Below are positions 4,240 to 23,072 of a DNA stretch of 23,631 bases, piece by piece. The translations under genes and the position numbers were made by a program. The notes under the pieces are model-generated. The model was not told the origin of the DNA. It saw only the letters and a list, made by a program, of their open reading frames with translations, and ran no database searches. Origin of the DNA: a virus; the IMG/VR virus record IMGVR_UViG_3300040807_000333, positions 1-23,631 of that record, one strand, 5' to 3'. Position 1 is the first letter of the stretch; every line of letters begins with the position of its first letter.

Positions 4240-5316
4240 ATGACCGCAACTATTGCACTTAAAAGGGAGTCATCCTGGGATCAGTTTTGTGACTGGGTGA
4301 CTTCTACTAACAACCGTTTGTATGTGGGTTGGTTTGGAGTGCTGATGATTCCGTGTCTCCTAGCCGCCACCATTTGTTTTATCTTGGCATTCGTTGCCGC
4401 TCCACCTGTTGACATTGATGGAATCCGCGAACCCGTCGCAGGCTCCTTGTTGTACGGGAACAACATTATTTCGGGAGCCGTCGTTCCGAGCAGCAATGCC
4501 ATCGGACTTCACTTCTACCCAATTTGGGAAGCTGCTTCACTTGATGAATGGCTGTACAACGGGGGTCCATTCCAACTCACCGTATTCCACTTCCTCATTG
4601 GCATCTATGCTTACATGGGACGCGAGTGGGAACTTAGCTATCGACTAGGAATGCGACCCTGGATCTTTGTTGCTTACTCTGCTCCAGTTGCTGCAGCTAC
4701 CGCAGTCTTCCTCGTCTACCCCTTCGGTCAAGGATCTTTCTCTGATGCAATGCCCCTCGGTATCTCCGGCACGTTTAATTACATGCTGGTCTTCCAAGCT
4801 GAACACAACATTCTCATGCACCCGTTCCATATGTTGGGAGTTGCTGGTGTATTTGGGGGTAGCCTGTTTAGTGCTATGCACGGTAGCCTTGTCACGTCTT
4901 CTCTTGTTAGGGAGACGACTGAGGACATGTCTCAAAACTATGGCTATAAGTTTGGACAAGAAGAAGAAACTTACAACATCGTAGCAGCACATGGCTACTT
5001 CGGACGTCTCATCTTCCAATACGCGAGTTTTAACAACAGCAGAAGTCTGCACTTTTTTCTGGCTGCTTGGCCTGTTGTTGGTATTTGGTTCGCTGCCCTT
5101 GGTGTTAGCACGATGGCTTTTAATCTTAACGGCTTTAATTTTAACCAGTCCCTTCTTGATAGTCAGGGACGTGTTGTTCGTTCTTGGGCAGACATTCTTA
5201 ACCAAGCCAACCTTGGATTCGAAGTCATGCACGAACGCAACGCTCACAACTTCCCTCTGGACCTTGCTTCTGTTGAGGCAACTCCGGTGGCTCTATCCGC
5301 CCCTGCCGTAGGCTGA
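4240..5316 (+). CDS. psbA: Photosystem II D1 reaction-centre protein
   Basis: Full-length D1 of 358 residues with five transmembrane helices. It binds P680 chlorophyll, pheophytin, QB and the Mn4Ca cluster in the thylakoid membrane. The numbering is one behind the standard. Visible key residues include Tyr160 (YZ, standard 161), Asp169, Glu188/His189, His197 (P680 ligand), His214 and His271 (iron), Ser263 (QB), and His331, Glu332, His336 and Asp341. The CtpA cleavage site is after Ala343, leaving a 15-residue extension. Residue 129 (standard 130) is Glu, as in the high-light D1:2 form of cyanobacteria, not the Gln of D1:1. The gene has no intron. Phage D1 replaces rapidly turned-over host D1 during infection. 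A 50-base non-coding gap with a GGGAGGGAGG tract precedes it. Confidence 0.99.
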
Positions 5317-5331
5317 TATACTGGATGCCGT

Positions 5332-5386
5332 CCGTTCATCCCACTTGTGGGACGCATGTCACCTAATCATGGAACGGGGGTTAGGT
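5332..5386 (+). promoter_or_regulatory. Putative glutamine riboswitch (glnA / Downstream-peptide type) pseudoknot
   Basis: The 86-base gap after psbA contains a compact nested fold. P1 is CCGTTC (5332-5337) with GAACGG (5372-5377). A hairpin, TCCCA (5339-5343) CTTG TGGGA (5348-5352), lies inside it. A pseudoknot forms between ACCTAA (5361-5366) in the P1 loop and TTAGGT (5381-5386) downstream. The CGTTCA-hairpin-GACGCA arrangement, the pseudoknot ending in TAGGT, and a tiny peptide gene starting 17 bases later match, from memory, the glutamine-binding glnA/DP RNA class of cyanobacteria and marine phages. The 3' pseudoknot strand lies near the ATG at 5403, which has no other clear ribosome binding site, so translational control is plausible. 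The pairing is seen; the class and ligand are recognition and inference. Confidence 0.7.
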
Positions 5387-5793: not shown

Positions 5794-7147
5794 ATGGCAC
5801 ATCAAAACTCTGCTGAGCCTCTTGCTGATCTTACGCAACTTGGCTCTTCTAACTTTGGCGCGGATACCCGTGCTCTGTATCTCAAGCTTTTTAGCGGTGA
5901 GATGTTCAAAGGTTTCCAGCAAAATACCATTGCTCGTGACCTGATCATGAAGCGGACTCTCCGTAACGGTAAGTCCCTGCAATTCATCTACACTGGTCGC
6001 ACGACTGCTGAGTACCACACTCCTGGTAACAGCATCCTCGGTAACAGCGACGGTGCACCTCCCGTGGCTGAGAAGACCATCACCTGTGATGACCTGCTGA
6101 TCAGCTCGGCTTTCGTGTATGAACTGGACGAAGTTCTGGCTTAAAGTAATGGGTCAGAATAAAATAAATTGGAAGAATTGCTGGAACCCTAAGTCCTTTT
6201 GGATATGGCAATCAGCAGCCGAGCTCTTCACGCTTGAAGAGAAGGTTCAGAGACTAGGTGGTTTGGGAAGCGTCCCATGTAATACACCATTAGCATCCAA
6301 CACCTTCGGGTGAAGATATAGTCCGATCCTACTAGAAATAGTAGATAAATTGCATTACGATCTGCGTTCGGAGATCAGCCGTAAAATCGGCTACGCTCTC
6401 GCAGAAAAATATGACCGTCTGATCTTCCGTGCTATCGCTAACGGTGCTCGTAAGGCTTCTCCTGTGTCTGCCACCTCCTTCGCTGAGCCTGGTGGTACTC
6501 AGGTCCGTGTTGGCGCCACTGCTAACTTCTCGGATGCTTATGATGACGCTGCTCTGGTCGCCGCCTTCTATGACGCCGCTGCTGCGCTGGACGAGAAGGG
6601 TGTGAGCCAAGAGGGTCGTGTTGCTGTCCTGACTCCTCGTCAGTATTATGCACTGCTGCAAGGCATCAACTCCAATATCCTTGTCAACCGTGACGTTCAG
6701 GGCGATGCTCTGCAGTCCGGTAAGGGTATCATGAGCATTGCTGGTATTGAGATCTTCAAGTCTACCAACATTCCTTTCTTCAGCAACTACGGTACCAAGT
6801 TCGGTTCGACCGGCGGTACTACCGACACTGGTGTTGCTTCTCCTGGTAACCTGGGTGACTTCATCGACACCAGCATGGAAGATGCTGACGCTGCTGCTAC
6901 CGGCATCAACAACGAGTATGGTCTGGGTACTGAGTTCAGCAAGTCCTGCGGTCTGATCTTCCAACGTGAAGCTGCCGGCGCTGTTGAAGCTATTGGTCCT
7001 CAGGTCCAAGTCACCAGCGGTGACGCTTCCATCATCTACCAAGGTGATGTGATCGTTGGTCGTCTCGCCATGGGCGCTGACTACCTGAATCCTGCTGCTT
7101 GTGTGGAACTGTTTGCTGGCGCTGCCTCTGGCGACGCTGCTTTCTGA
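5794..7147 (+). CDS. Major capsid protein, T7 gp10-like; split by a group I intron (exons 5794-6141 and 6353-7147)
   Basis: Joining 5794-6141 (116 codons) with 6353-7147 (264 codons and stop) gives a 380-residue protein of the size expected for the cyanophage relative of T7 gp10A (345). It is the HK97-fold shell subunit. Exon 1 ends in VYELDEVLA followed by an immediate TAA. Exon 2 opens HYDLRSEISRKIGYALAEKY. The join restores ELDEVLAHYDLRSEI, which reads as the family's continuous sequence. Without splicing, translation would stop after residue 116 and no shell protein would form. The ATG is preceded by AT-rich sequence with no strong Shine-Dalgarno. A strong terminator follows 20 bases after the stop. 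A frameshift or pseudogene reading is excluded by the complete intron structure. Confidence 0.95.
6142..6352 (+). ncRNA. Group I self-splicing intron (subgroup IA-like), 211 nt, no ORF
   Basis: The elements can be paired by eye. P1: exon GTTCTGGCT (6133-6141) pairs with guide GGTCAGAAT (6152-6160), 9 bp with the conserved U-G at the 5' splice site. P10: GTAATG (6146-6151) pairs with exon 2 CATTAC (6353-6358). P3: TTGGAT (6199-6204) with ATCCAA (6295-6300). P4-P6 domain hairpin: CTCTTCA (6224-6230) with TGAAGAG (6235-6241). P7: GACTA (6252-6256) with TAGTC (6319-6323), inside the conserved R (GTTCAGAGACTA) and S (AAGATATAGTCC) elements. P8: CACC-TTCG-GGTG just before S. P9: CTACTA-GAAA-TAGTAG (6329-6344). 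The last base is the conserved G (6352). About 38 bases between P7 and P3' can form the extra P7.1/P7.2 stems typical of subgroup IA. No homing endonuclease is encoded. Confidence 0.96.
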
Positions 7148-11867: not shown

Positions 11868-14570
11868 ATGGCTATTGATCCTATTCAGTTTCAGGGTTTT
11901 ACCGAACGCCAAGGCTTCGATCCTATTAAAGTCCCTGATCCTAATCCTTTCCTACGGGAAAATCTCAATACAATTGAAGCTAGCCTAAGAAATCTAGAGC
12001 GTGGTAACCTTGCTAACATGAAGGCAAAGGCTGATGCTTACAGCCGTAACCTTGCTCAACTTTCTGATTTCTCTCAAACTCTTTCTGGGTTCTTAGGTAC
12101 TGCTGCTCAGATCTACGATAAGAAACAAGAAGCAGCAGCTAATGCTCTGTATTATGAAGATCTAGCTTCTCAAGAAAATGACATCACTGCTCTTGAAGAA
12201 GGCGAAATAGCTCTTCAAGCTGGTGATGGCGTGACTTCTAAAGCAGCAGTCGCAGCTAACCGTAATGGTGCTCCTTACAGCGTCAGTAAGCGTATTGCTG
12301 AGCTTGGTGGTCTCAAAGGTTATTACTATCGAGTTAAAGCTACTCAAGACATTGCTTCTAAATATGCTGATTACTATGATGAAGCACGTCGAACTGATGT
12401 CCGTGAGATCAGCTTTGGTCCCAATGGTCAATTCAAAGTAAACATCAACGAAGCTGAACCGACTGAAATTGAAGAGTCTGCTATTCGTGCTTACTTGCGG
12501 GAAGAGTATCTTGAACAGTTCTCCGGTATTAGTCGGGGTATGCTGGCTAAGTATGCTTTTCCTACCATGAAGCAGGTAGACGAAACTCGTGCAACTGCTA
12601 ATGCAGATCGTATTGCTCTTCGTGATTCTGAGCGTGAACGCTATGAAGCTATGGAAGTTTTCCAGCAAACTGTTAATACAGATCCTGGAGCTTTACAAAA
12701 GCTGCTAGACACTGTTTCACGTACTGTTGTACAAGATCGTAACGGTAAAGTCACTAGCCTTCAATATGGAGGTGCTTGGAAGCAACTTCAAAATCAATTC
12801 CTTGAACTAGCTACAGCTGGGCAATATGTTGATCTAGAAGGTTTGATTGGTGATCAGATTAATCCTGACACTGGTAAGAAGTACATGGAAGATCCGATGT
12901 ACTCTACTAAGATCAAAGCTATTCAAGTTGAAATTAGAAAGGCTGAGACTGGTGCTTACCGCGATAGCCAAGTCAACGGTCAAGTACAGTTCCAAAAAAC
13001 TTTGGATGAGATGATTGGATCTTTGCCTGAAATTCCGACTGATAGTGATTATCAAGCGGTTTATGATGCAGCAGGTGAAGTGGCTAGAGAATACAACATT
13101 GAACCTGACTTCTCTAAACTGAATCATCACCGAGCTAATTACGGTCAATCAGCTCTTCAAGTTAAGCATAAAATGCAGATCTACAGGCAGCAACAACAAG
13201 CTGGCTTGTTAGACCCTGCAGATCTTTTGTTGGAACCACCTGAGGTTCAAAAGGAGTTCCTTAAAATAGCTGAAGCGCAAAAAGAATTGCGTGAAAACAC
13301 TAATGGTTTCAAAAGTATTGATACCCAGCTTAAAGCGTTGATCACTAACAATGATCGTATTAAGTCAGTTCCTGGTCAAACAGGTGCTACTGGTGGGATG
13401 TCTGCTCCTATGCTTGAGCATGTTACTGCTCTACATCGTCAACGTACTAATGAGTTGATGGGCACTGAGGAGTATAATAATAGACCTTTGGCTGCTGCAT
13501 TGGTTGCTTATCAAGAACTTGAAAGAGAAGTACTTGCTGGTAGAGAAAACAGCGGTAGTATCTATTACATTGATGAGAATGGTTATTCAAACTTTTTGAA
13601 AGAAAAGATTGGACTTAATCCAGCAATCGCTGCAAACCAACGACTTCAGCGCATCAATAAAATAGCGCAAACTGAAGGTAAAGCTGTCTTAGAAAATCAA
13701 AAGTCTTTGTCAACCTTGATTGATCGTGAAACTCTTGTTAAAGCGGCTGAAGGTTGGGGCAGACCCGGTTACAGAATGGATCCTGCTATTTCTTATTTAG
13801 CAAAGAAATTAGGACTTTCTGAATTAAACGTTATCCACAGAGCACGAGATACTTTTGATATGACTGAATTACCTGCTCTTGTTGAGTACGCCGCTAGGGC
13901 TGAAAATGCTAGCCCTGATTTAAAACGTGCTTTGTCACGTATTTCAGAAGGTGCTATCAGCAAGAACCAACTGCGCCGTGTTAGCAGTACTATTGATTTG
14001 CCTCTTCGCCAAACCTTTGTTGCTGCTCAACCAGCTAAAGGTGTGCTTGGTCCTATCAATTCCCCTAATCACCCCTTCTTTATATCCATTGGTGTCAATG
14101 AAGGTACTCGCACCGCTAACGGTGGTTATACAAAGAACTGGGAAGGTCATACCGATCCTGGTGACGGTCACTACAACCGTGGTACTGTAAGCGGTGGTCG
14201 TGGTAATAAAAACACACCCCAACAAGTTGACAGCAACTGGATGCGTTTGTTGTCTCAAACTCAAATGAAATACGATCATCAGGTAAGTAAGTATGCATCA
14301 CCTGGCACTGATCTCTATAATCATATTATGTTTAACATTATAGATCTCCGTGTTCAAGCACCTGCAGCTGTGCCTGATTTTGTCAAACGTATTCCTCAAA
14401 TTATTGCTGAAGGTGCAAGTCCTCAAGTGATTGGTAGGTTACGTGCTGAATCATTTATTAACCCTCGTACTGGACGGCTAGAAGCTTCTGGTTTTAACAA
14501 CAACATGCAACGTTTACAAGCAGACCAGACTCGCCGTGCTGGTAACTTTAGAATTGCAGGAGGTTCGTGA
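11868..14570 (+). CDS. Internal virion protein, T7 gp15-like, with a lysozyme-like C-terminal region
   Basis: The product has 900 residues (T7 gp15 has 747). Most of it is long helices rich in Ala, Gln and Glu, fitting the tubular core protein that spans the periplasm during ejection. From about residue 735 the composition changes to Gly/Asn/Thr-rich sequence: FFISIGVNEGTRTANGGYTK, then NWEGHTDPGDGHYNRGTVSG. This EGTRT-x(4)-Y and GHTDPG pattern resembles lysozyme-like domains in cyanobacterial and cyanophage proteins, with Glu745 the candidate catalytic acid. In T7 the cell-wall-cutting domain is instead at the N-terminus of gp16. The last 7 residues overlap a strong Shine-Dalgarno for the next gene. 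Confidence 0.85.
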   Translation: MAIDPIQFQGFTERQGFDPIKVPDPNPFLRENLNTIEASLRNLERGNLANMKAKADAYSRNLAQLSDFSQTLSGFLGTAAQIYDKKQEAAANALYYEDLASQENDITALEEGEIALQAGDGVTSKAAVAANRNGAPYSVSKRIAELGGLKGYYYRVKATQDIASKYADYYDEARRTDVREISFGPNGQFKVNINEAEPTEIEESAIRAYLREEYLEQFSGISRGMLAKYAFPTMKQVDETRATANADRIALRDSERERYEAMEVFQQTVNTDPGALQKLLDTVSRTVVQDRNGKVTSLQYGGAWKQLQNQFLELATAGQYVDLEGLIGDQINPDTGKKYMEDPMYSTKIKAIQVEIRKAETGAYRDSQVNGQVQFQKTLDEMIGSLPEIPTDSDYQAVYDAAGEVAREYNIEPDFSKLNHHRANYGQSALQVKHKMQIYRQQQQAGLLDPADLLLEPPEVQKEFLKIAEAQKELRENTNGFKSIDTQLKALITNNDRIKSVPGQTGATGGMSAPMLEHVTALHRQRTNELMGTEEYNNRPLAAALVAYQELEREVLAGRENSGSIYYIDENGYSNFLKEKIGLNPAIAANQRLQRINKIAQTEGKAVLENQKSLSTLIDRETLVKAAEGWGRPGYRMDPAISYLAKKLGLSELNVIHRARDTFDMTELPALVEYAARAENASPDLKRALSRISEGAISKNQLRRVSSTIDLPLRQTFVAAQPAKGVLGPINSPNHPFFISIGVNEGTRTANGGYTKNWEGHTDPGDGHYNRGTVSGGRGNKNTPQQVDSNWMRLLSQTQMKYDHQVSKYASPGTDLYNHIMFNIIDLRVQAPAAVPDFVKRIPQIIAEGASPQVIGRLRAESFINPRTGRLEASGFNNNMQRLQADQTRRAGNFRIAGGS
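14558..14563 (+). promoter_or_regulatory. Strong Shine-Dalgarno (AGGAGG) for the gp16-like gene
   Basis: AGGAGG lies within the last codons of the gp15-like gene, 6 bases before the ATG at 14570. It decides that start over the in-frame GTG at 14567. It is the clearest ribosome binding site in the window; most genes here show weak or no Shine-Dalgarno. Confidence 0.85.
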
Positions 14571-17500
14571 TGTATCAAGACTTTTATGAAGAAGATACAA
14601 AAGCAAAAGATAATAGTCCATTTACTGCTGAGCATAAAAAGATGCTAGCAGATGATGAGGCTAGATTTGCTAACTTTCCTGTTAAATTGGAAGAAGAACC
14701 AGCGGCTACACCACAAGCTGCTGAGCCTACTCAAGTTCAACCTGAAGAACCAAAGGAACAAAGTTTCCCTTGGGAAGCAGGTTATGATGCAGGAGATGCT
14801 GCACGTAACTTTGCTGAAGTAACACTTGCTGCTCCTACTGCTCTTGTTGACTTTGGCACTGATGTTCTTAATATGATTCCAGGGGTTGATATTCCTGAAA
14901 TTCCTGAGTTTAAGAATGAAGTAGTCCAAGGTGGTCGTGAGCTAGCTTCTATTATCCTGCCTAACTTTATTGGTGTTGGTGCAGCTACTAGGGGCATCCA
15001 AGCTCTGATGAAAGGTTCTCAGTTTGTTAGTAAAGCTGCAAAACTGGGTGCTACACAAAAGACTATTGTTAAACTCACTGGTGAAGCTGCATTGGCAGCG
15101 GGTGTCGGTGCTGGTGTTGATGCTATTAGTCGGACTAGCGAAGATCACAACGCTCTTGGTCAGCTCAAGGAAATGTTTCCACAGCACATGCAGTGGATTC
15201 CTGATAACATCGCTACCTTAAGTTCTGATGATTCTAACACTAAACGTGTTAAGAATGTTCTTGAAGGTATTGGTTTAGGTTTGTTTGCTGACCTACTGCT
15301 TGGTGCTGGCAAAGTCTTCAGGTCTGCAGCCAGGGTTCGTAAGTACGTCCCAGAAAATGAGATGGCAGAACCGTGGAAAGATATTGAAAAGATTCAACCC
15401 GGTACCGCAGAAGAAGCCGTTATTAACTCAGCTAATGCCCGTGAAAAGACCTTAGATGAGCTTGGTGCTGTTAATGCCTACATCAAAAACATGGATGATG
15501 ACCTAGACACTCCTGTGTTTGGTGCTGAAGATGTGTTTAATCTTGATGAATCTGGTGTACGTTCTGCCGACAACGCTGGTGTTCTCGGTGCTGCAGTTGA
15601 CCAAGTTGCTGCTACTAAGAACCTTGAGGGTCCTTATAGCCGTCTTGGTTCTGTTGCAACTGAAGGTGCCATTAAGTATGGTTTGAATGCAGGAGAGATG
15701 ACTAAGCGTACCTTGGTCAAAGCTATTGCAGATCAAATCAAAAAAGGTGGTAAGTACAGCGCAGAACTTGCTAGTGGACGTAAAGTAACCTTTGAAGAGA
15801 TTGATGAGGCTGGTACTCGTCTGTCTGAAATCATGATGGATCCTCGTATGGATCCTGGGTTCCTTAAAGCCACACTTGATGAGTTCAAGGACGAGTACAA
15901 TAAGCTTGGTGAAAAAGTTCAAGCTTTAGGTGACGTTGGTTACAACGCTGCCATGAAAACGATTAAGGGCTTGTTAGATGAATATCTAAACATGGATACG
16001 ATTAAGGCACAAGCTTATATGACTACTTCTATGGGTGGTCAAATTGCTGACTTGGCTGAAGGTGCTCGCCTTATGGAAGGCACTGATGCTGTTGCTCGTG
16101 CTCAAGAACAGATCCTTGATCGTGTTGAATATTTGATGGTTGAAAAAGGTTTGGCTGCTCACCTCAAAGGTCAATCGCTTAACTTCCTTAATACTTGGAA
16201 GCGTATGCGTAATGATCCTAAAGGATTGAAGGCTGCTGCTCAAGCGACTAAAGATGCTACTGATGAGCGTCTTGCACAAATCGTTGACAGTGCTAAAACC
16301 TTTAGGCAGTCCATGACTACCATTTCTAAAGAACGTCCTGAGTTCTTGTCTCCGCTTACCCATGCGTATGAGTACACTGATGGAGACATCAATACTCTGG
16401 CTAAACTGCATGAGTTTGCAAGCCAAAGCTTGGATCGTATTGATAAAGCATTCTACGATAACAAACCTGAGATTCCTAACCAAATTGTTCAAGGTGCTTG
16501 GGCAAACATCTATAACTCTGTGTTGACCAGTTTCGGTACCCCATTACGTGCTGCTCTGGGTAACTCTGTGTTGATGTTGACTAAACCTATTTCTGTGTTT
16601 GCTGGTGCTGCAACTTTTGGAGACACCAAAACATTGCAACGTGGTTGGTATCAATACTCTGCCTTTATGGATACGTTCCAAAAGGGATTCAAGCACATGG
16701 GTGATGTCTTTAAAAAAGCATCAACTGATCCTAACTCTGTTGGGTACATCATGCGTGATGACCTTGTGCTGAAGAACGAGCAGACTATGGAAACTCTTCG
16801 TGAGTATGCCTTGGCTGCTGAGAAAGGCGGTGAGTCTGGACCTTTGGCTTTGTATCACATGGCTGAAACCCTACAGGACATTGGTAATAACCCTGTTCTT
16901 AGGTTTGGTGCTAACGCCATGACAGCTCTTGACGGTTTTACCCGTGCTGTTGTAGCTAACGCAGAAGCTCGTGGTCGTGCCTTTGATCAATTCCAAAAGA
17001 GCGGTAAGACACTGACTGGTGATGAACTGAAGCGTATTTCGGACAATCTTTACAATGATATGTTCGACGCTACTGGCATGATTACTGATGAAGCAGTTGA
17101 ATACGCAAGCCGTGAGATTGCTTTGAACCTTGATAATCCTGCTGTTAAATCTATTAGCAGTTTTATTGAACGTAATAAGTTTATGAAACCCTTCCTGATG
17201 TTCCCGAGAACGTCAGCAAACATGATTACGATGACTAACAAGTTTAGTCCGATTTCATTGTTCTTGGAGGATTACAATAAACTGGCACTGCCTGGTCAAC
17301 GTTTTACTGCTGATGAAATCGAACGTATTTTAAAAAGCAAAGGTCTTCCTGTAACTCAAGAAGCGTTTAATAACCTTCGTGCTGAAATTCGTGGACGTAA
17401 GGCTATCGGCACGGCAACCATTATGGGTGCTGCTTGGTTGTTCATGAATGATCGTCTGCATGGTAATGGTCACTTTGACAAAGAACGTCAACGTGTTCGT

Positions 17501-18439
17501 CGTCAGCTTAACTGGCAACCTCGCAGCTACAAAGGTTGGGACGGTAACTGGTACAGCTATGACGGTCTTGGACCTATGGCTGATTTCTTGGCATTGACTG
17601 CCGACATGATGGATAACTTCGATTCTGTCGCTGACAATGATCTGGAAACTAGCCTCAATAAGATGGGATTCCTGCTGGCTGCTAACTTGACTAACAAGTC
17701 AATGCTTGCCGGTTTGGAGCCGATGAACGATGTGTTGACTGGTAACCCTGCAGCTATGAGCCGTTGGGCAGCTAGTTTTGCAAGTTCGTTGGTACCTTTG
17801 TCTGGTTTCCGTAATGAGCTGGGTAAAGTTATTGCTCCTCAACTTCGTGAGCTTGATCAAGACTTTTTCCAACTGCTGCGTAACCGTAACAAGTATTTGG
17901 ATGTTGTGGATCCCAAAGGTGCACTTCCCAATGCTTATGACTGGATTGACGGTGAACCCATTGGTTTTGCTGAAAACTTCTTCACTAGAGGTTGGAACGC
18001 TATTATGCCAATGAAAGTGTCTGATAGCATTACACCTGAACGTCAATTCTTGATTGATATTGAGTTTGATTCACGTCCTACTTTCCAGACTAATGGTAAG
18101 GGTATTAAATATACGCCTAAAGAACGGTCTGAATTGTTTAGTGAGATGGGCAGACAAAAATACTTTAAGAGAGAAGTTCAGCGTATTATGAAGTCTAATC
18201 CTGCTAAAGAATGGCGTAAAGCTCTTAATGAACAGCGTCAAAGCGGTCGTCCTGTTAAAGCTGAGCTTTGGGATGATGTGTACAACCAGCTGGATCGTGC
18301 TCTTCGTGGTGCTAAAAAGATGGCAGAAATTCAGCTTAGTAATTATCAAGAGATTCGTCGTCGTCAATTTGAAACTAGAGCTGGTGAAGTACAACAGCGT
18401 CGTGGTGAGGCACCTACCTTCCCACTTACTAACAAATAA
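14570..18439 (+). CDS. Internal virion protein, T7 gp16-like, lacking an N-terminal transglycosylase
   Basis: The product has 1289 residues (T7 gp16 has 1318). The first 80 residues are acidic and Pro/Glu/Gln-rich (EEEPAATPQAAEPTQVQPEE) and look disordered. They are followed by Ala/Gly-rich hydrophobic stretches (GEAALAAGVGAGVDAI; GIGLGLFADLLLGAGKV) and a long helical body. A conserved-looking central block contains LRFGANAMTALDGFTRAVVA and FLMFPRTSANMITMTNKFSP. In T7, gp16 is the largest ejected core protein and leads DNA into the cell. The Glu-Ser soluble lytic transglycosylase domain of T7 gp16 is not visible here. The start is set by AGGAGG; the stop of the upstream gene overlaps it (TGATG). 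Confidence 0.87.
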   Translation: MYQDFYEEDTKAKDNSPFTAEHKKMLADDEARFANFPVKLEEEPAATPQAAEPTQVQPEEPKEQSFPWEAGYDAGDAARNFAEVTLAAPTALVDFGTDVLNMIPGVDIPEIPEFKNEVVQGGRELASIILPNFIGVGAATRGIQALMKGSQFVSKAAKLGATQKTIVKLTGEAALAAGVGAGVDAISRTSEDHNALGQLKEMFPQHMQWIPDNIATLSSDDSNTKRVKNVLEGIGLGLFADLLLGAGKVFRSAARVRKYVPENEMAEPWKDIEKIQPGTAEEAVINSANAREKTLDELGAVNAYIKNMDDDLDTPVFGAEDVFNLDESGVRSADNAGVLGAAVDQVAATKNLEGPYSRLGSVATEGAIKYGLNAGEMTKRTLVKAIADQIKKGGKYSAELASGRKVTFEEIDEAGTRLSEIMMDPRMDPGFLKATLDEFKDEYNKLGEKVQALGDVGYNAAMKTIKGLLDEYLNMDTIKAQAYMTTSMGGQIADLAEGARLMEGTDAVARAQEQILDRVEYLMVEKGLAAHLKGQSLNFLNTWKRMRNDPKGLKAAAQATKDATDERLAQIVDSAKTFRQSMTTISKERPEFLSPLTHAYEYTDGDINTLAKLHEFASQSLDRIDKAFYDNKPEIPNQIVQGAWANIYNSVLTSFGTPLRAALGNSVLMLTKPISVFAGAATFGDTKTLQRGWYQYSAFMDTFQKGFKHMGDVFKKASTDPNSVGYIMRDDLVLKNEQTMETLREYALAAEKGGESGPLALYHMAETLQDIGNNPVLRFGANAMTALDGFTRAVVANAEARGRAFDQFQKSGKTLTGDELKRISDNLYNDMFDATGMITDEAVEYASREIALNLDNPAVKSISSFIERNKFMKPFLMFPRTSANMITMTNKFSPISLFLEDYNKLALPGQRFTADEIERILKSKGLPVTQEAFNNLRAEIRGRKAIGTATIMGAAWLFMNDRLHGNGHFDKERQRVRRQLNWQPRSYKGWDGNWYSYDGLGPMADFLALTADMMDNFDSVADNDLETSLNKMGFLLAANLTNKSMLAGLEPMNDVLTGNPAAMSRWAASFASSLVPLSGFRNELGKVIAPQLRELDQDFFQLLRNRNKYLDVVDPKGALPNAYDWIDGEPIGFAENFFTRGWNAIMPMKVSDSITPERQFLIDIEFDSRPTFQTNGKGIKYTPKERSELFSEMGRQKYFKREVQRIMKSNPAKEWRKALNEQRQSGRPVKAELWDDVYNQLDRALRGAKKMAEIQLSNYQEIRRRQFETRAGEVQQRRGEAPTFPLTNK

Positions 18440-18467: not shown

Positions 18468-21347
18468 ATGGCAACTACACAAAACACATACACTGGAGAT
18501 AACTCAACTGTTAGTTACTCCTTTACATTTCCATATCTTGAAGAGACGGACATTAAGGTAAGCCTTGATGGAGTCGTTACAACTGCATATACCCTGTCTA
18601 ACGCTACAACGGTTACCTTTAATACGGCTCCTGGTTCTGGAGTTGCTATTCGTATTTATCGGGACACAAACAACGATGCACTGGCGGCGACCTTCTTTGC
18701 GGGTTCCGCTATTCGTGCACAGGATTTGAATGATGACTTCCTGCAGAACGCTTATGTTACTCAGGAAGTTAAGAATCGGTATCTTGATAAAAATACTGGT
18801 GGTACGGTCACTGGTGACGTAACTATTACTGGTGACTTTGATGTCACTGGTGATACTGATCTTACTGGTGCATTTGATGTCACTGGTGCTAGCAGCTTTA
18901 CTGGTAACGTCGGTATTACAGGCACCCTTGACATGAATGCCAACCGCATTCTTGATGTCGGGACTCCTACCGCTGGTACTGATGCTACCAACAAAACTTA
19001 TGTTGATGCTTACATCCTAACTGTTTACCAAGGACCACAAGCTTCTGATCCTACTACCCGTTCTGGTGGTTCAGCTTTGCAAGAGGGTGACCTTTACTTT
19101 AATACCGTTGAGGATGTCCTTAAGGCTTACACTGGCACTGAATGGGTTGTTTCAGCTTCGGCTGGACAGATTATTCGCTGGCGTAAAACCGCTGCTGGTG
19201 GTGAGACTAGCCTGAGTGGTAACGATGATGGTGGTTCGTCACTGTCTTACGTTGTCGGTAATGAACAAGTCTTCCTGAACGGTGTTCTACAGCAACGTGG
19301 TGTTGATTATACCGCTTCTACTGGTACTAGCATCACTGGTCTTACTGCATTGACTGCTGGTGACATTGTTGAACTTCATGCTGTTCAAGGCTATACCTCT
19401 GGTATTGTTTCGGATGGGTCGATCACTTCGGCTAAGATTGCTAACGATACCATTGTTAATGAGGATATAAACAGCTCTGCTGCTATTGCGTACAGCAAAC
19501 TTAACCTTACTGGTAGTGTTGATAACGATGATGTTGCTACCAGTGCTAGCATCGTTGCTACTAAACTGAGCTTTACTCAATCTGGTACTGGCGCTACTGC
19601 TAGAACTATTGACAGCAAGTTAAAGGATGTTGTCTCCGTTAAGGACTTTGGTGCGGTTGGAGACGGTACTACTAATGATACGGCAGCTATTCAGGCGGCT
19701 ATTGATGCAACTCCAGATGGAGGAACTCTTGTATTTCCTCCTGGAACCTATGCGTTGACTGAAACTGCAACAACTGGTAATGCCGTTATTCTTAGTGAAA
19801 CTGGCACAGCGGCTGATGCTCCAGACTTCGTTATTTTGCAGCTTGTTGAACGGCATAATATCAAGATTAGTGGTTACGGTGCAACTCTAACTTTTGATAG
19901 AGGTTATGTACTGTTCTTGCTGCTTTGCGAAACTATCTTTATTGAAGGACTAAGTTTCGTCTGCAATAATGATCCTCACAGCACTGGATTCACGCCACCG
20001 GCCAACTGGGAAACAGCAGCAGTTCAAGTCCATTATTCAATGGATTGTCACGTTAACAGCTGTACTGTTAAACAAGTTCATCGCGGATTAGATTTTAGAC
20101 GTACTGCTGAGTGTTCTGCTACCAATAATAAAATCTCCAAAAACAATTACATAGGAATTGCTTCTTATGGTGATTTCTTTCAACCAGCTGGTTGGACTGG
20201 AGATTCACTGGTTTCTAGGTTTACTTCTCCTGGTCACAGCACTGATTCAGGTATTTTGATTGATAATAACCTTGTTAGTGACTATAAATATTTTGGACTT
20301 TATTCTAACGGTCCAGCAATGTTTAGCAATAACCGAGTTGATCATCCTATTGAAAGTGGTGCAACTCCTGGTCCTGGTGTTGGTGGTCTTGGTGGTATTA
20401 CATCCTCCTCTGGTAAAACTACTATCATAGGAAACAGATTCTTTGCACCACTATTAACTGATATTAGGGATGATACCCGTAAATACACTGCTATTAGCTT
20501 AAAACTTGAAGATGTTGCTAGTGGAGCTACCGCTGATAATGTTATTATTAGTAATAACTGGATTGATGGCTGCTCGTCTGGTATCTCTGCTACTGAAACT
20601 GCTAATTGCACTATCACAAGTAACCTAGTCACTAACTACACAGCCAATGCTATTAACCTGATTGGCAACTCTGGTATTGGTTCAAACATTTTCAACACTA
20701 TTGTTACTGATAACATTATTGGTACGGTTGATCCTTCAACAACGGTTGCTCCAACGACTTATAACATGGTTGGTGGTATTGTTACCAGTGTAAGCAGTTC
20801 GGGATATTTTATCAATAAACTTGTCATTACTAATAACGTTTTTAATCGTAATTACGATGACATTACAGATGGTACTGCTTTGACAAATCACCAGTACGCA
20901 ATTTTTGTTGTTAGTACAGATGCTACTGGTGAATTAGTCATTCAAACCAATAAACTTGTTGAAGCCAGCGATGGTTTAGTTTATGCTCCTAATAATTCTG
21001 TTTGGGAGGCTACTTTTAACGGTGTGCAGTTTGTTACTGGTAACCATACTATAACCGAAGGCCACCAAGATCAAACTATTGTTTGTGATGTTTCAGCTAA
21101 TGCAACCATTTCTACACCAGCTAAAACAGTGCCAGGAACAAAAATAACTATTATTAACCGCAGTACTTATAATGTAACGTTTGATCCTCCGGTTGGTTCA
21201 ACCATCAGCGGTTCGGGTTCTTTGCGGTTAGCTAGTTATGGTTCTGTAACGCTGGTCTTGCTGACTATGGGTATTAATGGTACAAGTCAAACCTGGGATA
21301 TTACTGGATCAGACACCACTCGTGGCGGTACACTTACCCTTATCTAA
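18468..21347 (+). CDS. Tail fibre with T7 gp17-type N-terminus and beta-helix (pectate-lyase-like) domain
   Basis: The product has 959 residues. Residues 1-110 match the T7 tail-fibre virion-attachment domain: YTGDNSTVSYSFTFPYLEET, then AIRAQDLNDDFLQNAYVTQE. Residues about 109-153 are a Thr-Gly repeat stalk. A collar-like region follows, then from about residue 385 VVSVKDFGAVGDGTTNDTAA starts a right-handed beta-helix of the pectate-lyase/tailspike kind, rich in Asn and Gly turns to about residue 870, and a small C-terminal beta domain ending in DTTRGGTLTLI. It recognises the host surface and may cleave polysaccharide; no catalytic residues can be assigned by eye. The Ile-Gln-Ala-Ala-Ile-Asp stretch is duplicated in the next gene. 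Confidence 0.92.
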   Translation: MATTQNTYTGDNSTVSYSFTFPYLEETDIKVSLDGVVTTAYTLSNATTVTFNTAPGSGVAIRIYRDTNNDALAATFFAGSAIRAQDLNDDFLQNAYVTQEVKNRYLDKNTGGTVTGDVTITGDFDVTGDTDLTGAFDVTGASSFTGNVGITGTLDMNANRILDVGTPTAGTDATNKTYVDAYILTVYQGPQASDPTTRSGGSALQEGDLYFNTVEDVLKAYTGTEWVVSASAGQIIRWRKTAAGGETSLSGNDDGGSSLSYVVGNEQVFLNGVLQQRGVDYTASTGTSITGLTALTAGDIVELHAVQGYTSGIVSDGSITSAKIANDTIVNEDINSSAAIAYSKLNLTGSVDNDDVATSASIVATKLSFTQSGTGATARTIDSKLKDVVSVKDFGAVGDGTTNDTAAIQAAIDATPDGGTLVFPPGTYALTETATTGNAVILSETGTAADAPDFVILQLVERHNIKISGYGATLTFDRGYVLFLLLCETIFIEGLSFVCNNDPHSTGFTPPANWETAAVQVHYSMDCHVNSCTVKQVHRGLDFRRTAECSATNNKISKNNYIGIASYGDFFQPAGWTGDSLVSRFTSPGHSTDSGILIDNNLVSDYKYFGLYSNGPAMFSNNRVDHPIESGATPGPGVGGLGGITSSSGKTTIIGNRFFAPLLTDIRDDTRKYTAISLKLEDVASGATADNVIISNNWIDGCSSGISATETANCTITSNLVTNYTANAINLIGNSGIGSNIFNTIVTDNIIGTVDPSTTVAPTTYNMVGGIVTSVSSSGYFINKLVITNNVFNRNYDDITDGTALTNHQYAIFVVSTDATGELVIQTNKLVEASDGLVYAPNNSVWEATFNGVQFVTGNHTITEGHQDQTIVCDVSANATISTPAKTVPGTKITIINRSTYNVTFDPPVGSTISGSGSLRLASYGSVTLVLLTMGINGTSQTWDITGSDTTRGGTLTLI
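18793..18928 (+). repeat. Thr-Gly tandem repeat encoding the fibre stalk
   Basis: Degenerate in-frame units built on ACTGGT (Thr-Gly) recur every 6-8 codons: TGGTVTGDVTITGDFDVTGD, then TDLTGAFDVTGASSFTG. GATGTCACTGGTG occurs twice exactly. Such short beta repeats form triple-stranded stalks in phage fibres. Repeat number could vary between strains. Confidence 0.75.
19680..19708 (+). repeat. 29-bp perfect direct repeat, copy 1 (in the first fibre gene)
   Basis: The stretch starting ACGGCAGCTATTCAGGCGG and ending ATTGATGC is identical to 21498-21526 in the second fibre gene. It encodes the start of the beta-helix domain (TAAIQAAIDA). Identity at the DNA level in otherwise divergent genes suggests recent module exchange or selection for recombination. 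Confidence 0.95.
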
Positions 21348-21350
21348 CCT

Positions 21351-21378
21351 ATGACTAAAACACGCGACTTAGCCGACC
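21351..21378 (+). repeat. 28-bp direct repeat, copy 1: start of the second fibre gene
   Basis: The stretch starting ATGACTAAAACACGCGACTT and ending AGCCGACC recurs exactly at 23081-23108; with the preceding CT the identity is 30 bases. It flanks the whole second fibre gene, as expected after duplication and loss, or swapping, of a fibre module. Confidence 0.97.
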
Positions 21379-23072
21379 TGGGTGGAGGTTTCATCCAGGC
21401 CGGTACTGGTGCTGTGCAGCGCACCGTTGAATCAAAGCTGCAAGATGTGGTGAGCGTTAAAGACTTCGGAGCTGTTGGTGACGGGGTTGCTGATGACACG
21501 GCAGCTATTCAGGCGGCTATTGATGCTTCCACTGCTGTGTACGTACCTGCCGGAAATTATGCAATAAGCACTCCTTTAATAGTCCCAGCAAACAAAACTA
21601 TCTTCGGAGAAGGTGTAATTCAAGCGGAAAGTGGTTACACTTCTAACTATCTGATGGTTGTCGGTGCAGAATCTACTATCCGTTGTCTTTCGTTTGATGG
21701 TACTAACATGCCATCTCCAACTGGAGCATGGACTGGAGCAGGTGTAGGAACAGCACGAGCTCCGGTAGGGTCTGCTGTCTTTGTTAATGGCAGCTCCGGT
21801 AGCGTAGTTGTAAACGTAACTCTTGATGGATTAACATTCTCCAACTTTAGTAGTGGACCAGTTTGCGCTTTTTATGCTGACTATTTTCAGATTAAAAACT
21901 GTAAAGCTGCTACCGTGCAGACCTATACTTCCAATGAGACAAATGCTGTATATCATGTAGATAACAGCGTTTCACCTAGTTATGTCAATTGCTCAATAAA
22001 TGGGTTTAATTGGAAAGGTTTTTATTTTGCCTATGCAACACAAGGTAAAATGCTCAACTGTTCGGCAACAGGTGGAGTTGCTGGACATGCAGCACACTAT
22101 GTAACCTATGGTACTGGCAATACTCTTTCGGCATGTTCGCAGACAGGAGGTTTTGGGTTTAAGGGTACCAACACGCAAGATTTAATTGTTGATGGGTATC
22201 TTAGCCGCAATTCCAGTGGATCAGGTCTTTTTGCATATTGCTCAAAAAACGTCGTATTTAGCAACTGCATTGTCAAACAGCCTGCTGCTGGAGGTATTTA
22301 TGTAACCGCCGATAGTTCTTACGGTCCCTGCCAAAATATTTTGGTATCTGGCTGCGAAGTTATCTATGAAACAGCAGCAACTGGAGTCAACGAAATTGGT
22401 ATCTACATCAGCGGTGACGCCACTTATGGCATTGAAGATGTAACGATCATTGGTTGTAAGTTCTGGCAACCATTCTTCGGTATTCGTGTCTTGAATACAG
22501 CTTCTGCTATAATTTCTAAAATAAACATTATTAACAGTACGTTTTACCGTCCAATTCAGTACGCCATTCTTGCCTACGTCAAATCAGTTTTTATTTCCGA
22601 TTGCAACTTTGATTTAAATACCTTATTCCCGTGTGGATACCTTGTATCACAAACTTCCGTAAATGGTGATGAATTAGTAATTACTAACAATCGTTCATTT
22701 ACTTCATCCGGCTCCGGTGTTCACTGGGATGTTGCCACTGGCTCGGGTGCTGGTAGCTGCGTATTTTCTAGCATTGCGTTTTCAAATAACATCGCTAACG
22801 GAGGAAACGAGTTTATCAAAATTGCCGGAAACAATGCAGCAACTGACGTGGTAAACAACATTACTTTGACGGGCAATGTCGGTAACAACTTGGGTGCAGC
22901 TGATGTAATTATAATTACTGCAAACGCTACTACGACTATTAACTGCACGACGTTGACAGGAAATGTTCTATCTACTGGAACAAATCGCAAAAACATTAAA
23001 GTAGTTAATTCATCAAATGTAACTAATAAAGTTGATTCTGGGAATAATGTTAATGCTGTTACTTACGCTTAA
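21351..23072 (+). CDS. Second tail fibre / tailspike-like beta-helix protein
   Basis: The product has 573 residues and no T7-type attachment domain. Its first 40 residues (MTKTRDLADLGGGFIQAGTG, then AVQRTVESKLQDVVSVKDFG) run straight into the pectate-lyase-like entry motif AVGDGVADDTAAIQAAIDA. A right-handed beta-helix with many Asn, Gly and Cys follows, ending in NNVNAVTYA. It likely associates with the preceding fibre or the tail to give a second host-surface specificity; this is inference. Cys is more frequent than in neighbouring genes, which may hint at a different origin. The gene starts 3 bases after the first fibre gene ends, and its first 28 bases recur directly after its own stop. 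Confidence 0.85.
   Translation: MTKTRDLADLGGGFIQAGTGAVQRTVESKLQDVVSVKDFGAVGDGVADDTAAIQAAIDASTAVYVPAGNYAISTPLIVPANKTIFGEGVIQAESGYTSNYLMVVGAESTIRCLSFDGTNMPSPTGAWTGAGVGTARAPVGSAVFVNGSSGSVVVNVTLDGLTFSNFSSGPVCAFYADYFQIKNCKAATVQTYTSNETNAVYHVDNSVSPSYVNCSINGFNWKGFYFAYATQGKMLNCSATGGVAGHAAHYVTYGTGNTLSACSQTGGFGFKGTNTQDLIVDGYLSRNSSGSGLFAYCSKNVVFSNCIVKQPAAGGIYVTADSSYGPCQNILVSGCEVIYETAATGVNEIGIYISGDATYGIEDVTIIGCKFWQPFFGIRVLNTASAIISKINIINSTFYRPIQYAILAYVKSVFISDCNFDLNTLFPCGYLVSQTSVNGDELVITNNRSFTSSGSGVHWDVATGSGAGSCVFSSIAFSNNIANGGNEFIKIAGNNAATDVVNNITLTGNVGNNLGAADVIIITANATTTINCTTLTGNVLSTGTNRKNIKVVNSSNVTNKVDSGNNVNAVTYA
21498..21526 (+). repeat. 29-bp perfect direct repeat, copy 2 (in the second fibre gene)
   Basis: Identical to 19680-19708 in the first fibre gene. 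It encodes the same beta-helix entry motif in the same reading frame. Confidence 0.95.

Follow-up and report, generated by a model that had tools for sequence, protein, structure and literature searches.

The gp15-like internal core protein encoded in the 23,631-nt stretch of marine cyanophage DNA analyzed here (IMGVR_UViG_3300040807_000333, the whole of which is called the window) very probably ends in a domain of the lysozyme superfamily which would cut the glycan strands of peptidoglycan at ejection, with Glu745 as the general acid, the end of gp15 serving as an exchangeable socket. The C-terminal ~170 residues of this protein are a separate domain, and the swap of such domains on homologous gp15 bodies was seen directly in related phages. 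We infer that the domain is an enzyme, that it uses Glu745 for catalysis and that it acts at DNA entry, as well as which bond it would cut. As a lysozyme-shaped module is placed where relatives carry unrelated wall-cutters, it probably bores the entry hole in the host wall. With less assurance, we also think that the balance favors a novel family within the lysozyme superfamily, of glycoside hydrolases or lytic transglycosylases, which is common to cyanobacteria, Myxococcus, Acidobacteria and phages; in cyanopodoviruses it would be among the five or more unrelated wall-cutters plugged into the C-terminus of gp15.

The gp15-like protein and its ejection cassette

The window holds a T7-like structural block of a cyanopodovirus, which contains the portal, scaffold, psbA, capsid, tail proteins, gp14-like, gp15-like and gp16-like proteins and tail fibers (Table 1). 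The phage psbA, which encodes the D1 protein of photosystem II, marks a cyanobacterial host. As the fragment is only 23.6 kb, the phage's own endolysin is not seen in it, and this was counted against our explanation.

The domain-bearing protein was assigned as gp15-like from the order of the genes, its size and its resemblance to proteins of other cyanopodoviruses. Its gene lies between the gp14-like gene, which is the first of the ejection cassette, and the gp16-like gene, the location to be expected for a virion-associated lysin of a T7-like ejection cassette. Residues 3-215 share 27% identity with the protein found at the same position in Synechococcus phage S-SBP1. No blastp match to T7 gp15 was obtained at E ≤ 1e-3, as expected since gp15 changes fast (PMC8954989). 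The gp16-like ORF comes directly after the domain-bearing ORF in the window and in loci L005, L045, L060, L062, L152 and L153, and some Krakvirus-like loci present a weak gp16-like match about one gene further along.

Table 1. Features of the window, with positions, strand and supporting evidence.
Feature	Position	Strand	Evidence
psbA (photosystem II D1)	4240..5316	+	phrog_182 4e-196
Glutamine-II riboswitch	5330..5386	+	RF01704, 58 bits
Major capsid gene, exons	5794..6141 and 6353..7147		
Group I intron	6132..6345	+	RF00028, 83 bits
gp14-like internal virion protein, 219 aa	11203..11862	+	phrog_29086 9e-34; phrog_15746 "internal virion protein" 8e-9
gp15-like core protein, 900 aa, domain-bearing	11868..14570	+	gene order; S-SBP1 likeness; phrog_37911 5e-8
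gp15-like body, residues 1-725	11868..14042	+	common to relatives with differing C-terminal domains
C-terminal lysozyme-like domain (predicted), residues ~726-896	14043..14555	+	AlphaFold2 model; lysozyme superfamily ranks first; 52-member family
Glu745, proposed catalytic acid	14100..14102	+	Glu in 52/52 homologues; at the end of helix 1, where the aligned ranges pair it with T4 lysozyme Glu11
His761 and Asp763; Asp763 a candidate second active-site residue	14148..14156	+	invariant 52/52
Asn770, Gly772, Ser775, region following Asp763	14175..14192	+	invariant 52/52
Asp826, Gln830 of the DLxxQ(A/S)P motif	14343..14357	+	invariant 52/52
Arg859, just beyond the end first proposed for the domain	14442..14444	+	invariant 52/52
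Asp886, Gln887, Arg890 of the DQxxR motif, outside the range first proposed	14523..14537	+	invariant 52/52
gp16-like internal virion protein, 1290 aa, GTG start, without transglycosylase domain	14567..18439	+	phrog_6651 "internal virion protein" E = 0
Tail gene, possible depolymerase	18468..21347	+	PF12708; T7 tail fiber N-terminus
Tail gene, possible depolymerase	21351..23072	+	PF12708

Elsewhere in the block, a group I intron interrupts the major capsid gene, and the capsid protein match breaks exactly between two adjacent residues at this point; the gene is unbroken at the intron position in S-SBP1 and in L005, the 5' end of which is incomplete. The Glutamine-II riboswitch is located just downstream of psbA. 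The two tail genes are successive, and their common feature is a pectate-lyase-like beta-helix domain.

A separate domain family at the C-terminus

The two strings EGTRTANGGYTK and GHTDPGDGHYNRG, on which the sequence-only reading had based a wall-cutting domain of the gp15-like protein, are indeed located at residues 745-772 of this ORF. The domain had been placed at 14074-14440; it is real, but this range is shorter than the modelled fold, and an end at 14440 leaves out the conserved Arg859, Asp886, Gln887 and Arg890.

Searching annotated phages by tblastn with the whole gp15-like protein gave two classes of match. Residues 3-215 matched the proteins found at this position in S-SBP1, S45-C4, S-RIP2 and KBS-P-1A. 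The other class consisted of residues 681-894, which matched an otherwise unrelated protein of 990 aa in Krakvirus S39-C11 (BAQ94500.1). The C-terminal 173 residues of the latter are a true homologue of the C-terminal piece taken alone (51% identity, E = 2e-50), whereas the remainder is unrelated to the gp15 of the window by blastp. The same piece matched a stand-alone protein of 195 aa in the Microcoleus phage My-WqHQDG (30% identity, E = 3e-7). With these E-values, the similarity of the domain is far above chance.

An HMM built from 52 homologues recognized the gp15-like ORF at E = 2e-66, and every other ORF of the window at no better than E = 2.9. Alignment of these phage and bacterial copies gave 16 invariant residues, namely Glu745 and 15 others, and the family motif reads EGTR...GHxDPGxG..N.G..S ... 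DLxxQxP ... DQxxR. Similarity across the whole domain and presence of the invariant residues, by which membership of the family was judged, were both found in the window copy. Neither Pfam, NCBIfam nor PHROGs gave an informative match on the domain; the family has no name so far in domain databases and is new.

The domain is under purifying selection, with dN/dS of 0.12 and 0.16 against two relatives. A lysozyme fold might nevertheless have decayed or been repurposed in this protein, and serve only virion assembly or the folding of gp15. The protein is structural and has no known activity, and the window copy shows WEGH where YYGH is common, both of which would agree with such a loss. However, all 16 invariant residues are retained under the selection just mentioned, and the replacement of the domain by other wall-cutters in relatives, described below, speaks for an enzyme function, so that we find decay highly improbable.

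Outside the window, an alignment-based search found the domain at 34 bacterial loci, mostly in filamentous cyanobacteria but also in Myxococcus and in one Acidobacterium, and at 21 viral loci. In a drawn sample of cyanobacterial genomes, it was present in 16 out of 194. In Myxococcus, the copies follow an N-terminal LysM domain, the Acidobacterium copy is fused to PG_binding_1 domains, and several cyanobacterial copies start with an apparent signal sequence, as judged by eye from the sequences. The stand-alone copy of phage My-WqHQDG is flanked by an N-acetylmuramoyl-L-alanine amidase and a peptidoglycan LD-endopeptidase, in an endolysin cluster. These neighbors and fusions are the company of a peptidoglycan-cutting domain.

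Two of the loci call for a separate remark. A second copy in My-WqHQDG (L004:9797-11144) is divided between two reading frames, by a frameshift or a sequencing error, and continues into an M23 peptidase. Also, a protein of 970 aa in which the domain is C-terminal, as in the phage proteins (L011:2065-4977), is encoded on a contig assigned by binning to Planctomycetia TMED53, which is probably a mis-binned phage contig.

The same surroundings could be read in another way, namely that the domain is a non-cutting binder of peptidoglycan or of some other glycan of the envelope, by which the ejected gp15 conduit would be anchored in the wall, given that binding domains adjoin the bacterial copies and that the Krakvirus homologue (L001:2200-5172) was deposited as a "LysM domain-containing protein". 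Pfam, however, detects no LysM in the Krakvirus protein, and this identity was dropped. Moreover, separate LysM and PG_binding_1 modules are in bacteria the usual partner layout for a catalytic domain, the relatives fill the same gp15 position with unrelated enzymes, and Glu, Asp and His are invariant. Binding without cutting is thus unlikely, and we keep the reading of a cutting domain in what follows.

Predicted fold and candidate active site

No Pfam match of the domain to GH24 (Phage_lysozyme, PF00959) was obtained at E ≤ 1. The profile-profile search which had been recommended along with the first description of the domain gave no sequence link to GH24, GH108 or SLT: the probability was 1.5-2.5% for GH24, against 99% for the positive control (two GH24 subsets compared with each other), and below 3% for GH108 and SLT. 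The alignments of GH24, SLT and GH108 used in this comparison were built from fetched genomes, and that of GH24 comprised 26 rows, one of which (L090) was read from the wrong strand. Searches among PDB sequences, with a single sequence or a profile, returned only chance matches, and no SLT profile of the T7 gp16 type was found in the gp15-like protein of the window. The DPG..N.G motif had prompted the idea of GH108 (PF05838; EGG...D.GG.TN.GIT motif), which was rejected for lack of a Pfam match and a profile-profile probability below 1%. That no known wall hydrolase could be linked to the domain by significant sequence similarity counts against our explanation.

The prediction of the structure, likewise recommended, gave confident models for two distant members of the family. 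The AlphaFold2 model of the window domain, based on 52 sequences, reached a pLDDT of 90.5 and a pTM of 0.87, and a second model, made from a Myxococcus copy ~33% identical to that of the window, a pLDDT of 95.4. Foldseek against the PDB gave nothing at E ≤ 0.001 with either model. When Foldseek's own list, in which the PDB heavily over-represents T4 lysozyme, was given a second look by VIA-align, GH24 endolysins led for the window model, with 7m5i (Z 8.0, rmsd 4.0, 140 aligned) and 3hde (Z 7.9, rmsd 4.4, 145 aligned); a Z of about 8 can be fortuitous and is often reached by models without a clear match. For the Myxococcus model, GH24 enzymes were again at the top, tied with the transglycosylases MltE (Z 7.7, rmsd 3.3, 129 aligned), MltC and MltF and with a leech lysozyme (i-type).

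The GH24 endolysins (R21, FAHEc1, T4 lysozyme) are thus the best structural matches, at a Z of just ~8, although they have no sequence or profile similarity to the domain. Glu745 sits at the end of the first helix of the model. Residue 21 of the window model pairs with residue 1 of T4 lysozyme, and Glu31 of the model, which is Glu745, stands opposite Glu11 of the T4 enzyme if helix 1 is ungapped. In the Myxococcus model it is residue 12 that pairs with T4 residue 1, and Glu22 is again opposite Glu11. The Glu-to-Asp spacing is 18 residues in the window domain and 9 in T4 lysozyme. Despite the Z near 8, a fold of the lysozyme superfamily is likely in view of this consistent family of matches and of the register in which the Glu falls, the structural match being a support and not a proof.

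A variant of our explanation is that the domain acts as a lytic transglycosylase, with one catalytic Glu and anhydro-muropeptide products, instead of a hydrolytic lysozyme. The tie of MltE, MltC and MltF with GH24 for the Myxococcus model is consistent with it, and T7 gp16 performs the same step, the opening of the wall, by a transglycosylase (PMC5380687). However, the invariant Asp763 after Glu745 would suit a two-residue lysozyme site, and GH24 rows come first for the window's own model. We regard this variant as possible, if rather doubtful.

T7 ejects gp14, gp15 and gp16, which together form a conduit spanning the envelope; it is gp16 that cuts the wall (PMC8954989). In the phage of the window, following our main explanation, the core proteins would be ejected into the periplasm, with gp15 carrying the cutter at its C-terminus. 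Glu745 would donate a proton to the oxygen of the glycosidic bond joining MurNAc to GlcNAc, and the reaction might be finished either by water, as in a lysozyme, or by the C6 hydroxyl, as in a transglycosylase. A local hole in the cyanobacterial wall would let the gp14/gp15/gp16 conduit pass and the viral DNA enter, which is the same presumed step as that of the SLT of T7 gp16. The sequence-only reading, which had proposed a peptidoglycan-cutting domain with Glu745 as catalytic acid, is very probably right on the kind of domain: the separate domain, the predicted lysozyme-like fold, the Glu at the catalytic position and the wall-related company agree with a putative peptidoglycan-cutting enzyme.

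Domain exchange at the end of gp15

The C-terminus of gp15 carries a Hydrolase_2 (cell wall hydrolase) domain in S-SBP1 and S-RIP2, above the Pfam cut-off, and in S45-C4 (27.1 vs 27); the match of S-B28 is weaker, but this protein is 55% identical there to that of S-SBP1. In these four phages, Hydrolase_2 occupies the same place as the Glu745 domain on homologous bodies, and belongs to an unrelated sequence family; the segment of S-SBP1 is related to the endolysins of cyanomyoviruses. Other gp15-like proteins end with SLT and M23 (S-CBP4), with glucosaminidase and M23 (S-SRP01), with glucosaminidase (S-CBP1), with Phage_lysozyme2 (L135 at 4.8e-15; Syn5 at just 0.013), or with a part of phrog_90, annotated as endolysin (L131, L149, L158, S-RIP1). 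The S-CBP4 protein (L066:1680-4784) is annotated as hypothetical though it bears both SLT and M23.

Two comparisons display the exchange itself. Over residues 1-793, the gp15-like proteins of L152 and S-SBP1 share 45% identity, and their ends differ, with the Glu745 domain in the former and Hydrolase_2 in the latter. Similarly, L152 and L149 are 50% identical over residues 1-760, after which L149 has the phrog_90 segment and L152 the Glu745 domain. No Pfam-recognized wall-cutter was found at the gp15 C-terminus of five surveyed phages (P-SSP3, P-GSP1, 9515-10a, S-TIP37 and S28-C3), so that a wall-cutter at this end is frequent, not universal. We consider with good confidence that the end of gp15 is in cyanopodoviruses a socket repeatedly fitted with unrelated wall-cutting enzymes.

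In phiKMV, the lysozyme domain is C-terminal. The virion-associated muramidase of phiKMV (gp36), SP6 (gp36) and K1-5/K1E is carried by an internal core protein which is not the homologue of T7 gp16 (PMC8954989, PMC5380687). Lysozymes are listed in SP6 gp36, K1-5 and phiKMV gp36 (PMC5380687), and a review reports lysozyme on the gp15-like proteins of K1E and K1-5 and terms domain swapping across ejection proteins thematic (PMC8954989). The hosts of these phages are Enterobacteriaceae or Pseudomonas, and their lysozyme activity is listed (PMC5380687), whereas that of the window domain is predicted only. What is new, together with the domain family, is the breadth of the swapping at the gp15 end; the placement of a lysozyme on gp15 was already known from phiKMV, SP6 and K1-5, and the surprise is limited by this known principle.

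Little is known about how short-tailed cyanophages cross the host wall, and most of their gp15-like proteins carry a hypothetical label. With a candidate active site named in a lysozyme-like family that itself has no name, and with a recurrent swap of wall-cutters on a single core protein, functions would be assigned to many proteins, from marine phages as well as cyanobacteria, that are so far hypothetical, and one could test whether the choice of wall-cutter depends on the host. On the new-family reading given at the outset, the ejection machine would be a modular drill, the bit of which is exchanged to fit the host wall.

The cutter of T7 is an SLT at the N-terminus of gp16, whereas the predicted cutter of the window is at the C-terminus of gp15 and has no similarity to SLT. 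A transglycosylase of the T7 type had been described as missing from gp16, and this was borne out: neither Pfam nor a separate SLT HMM detected SLT in the gp16-like protein of the window, with T7 gp16 found at 1.7e-31 as positive control. From there, it had been proposed that gp15 took over the wall-cutting step from gp16 in the lineage of this phage, a direction which would be compatible with our explanation and agrees with the presence of SLT in T7 gp16 and its absence here. As stated, this is unsupported, and we judge it improbable, since none of the other cyanopodovirus gp16-like proteins scanned has an SLT, cutters at the gp15 end are frequent in relatives, and phiKMV, SP6 and K1-5/K1E also have gp15-placed lysozymes (PMC8954989, PMC5380687). 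In view of the SLT-less gp16 proteins of cyanopodoviruses and of the gp15-placed lysozymes outside this group, the T7 arrangement may equally be the derived one.
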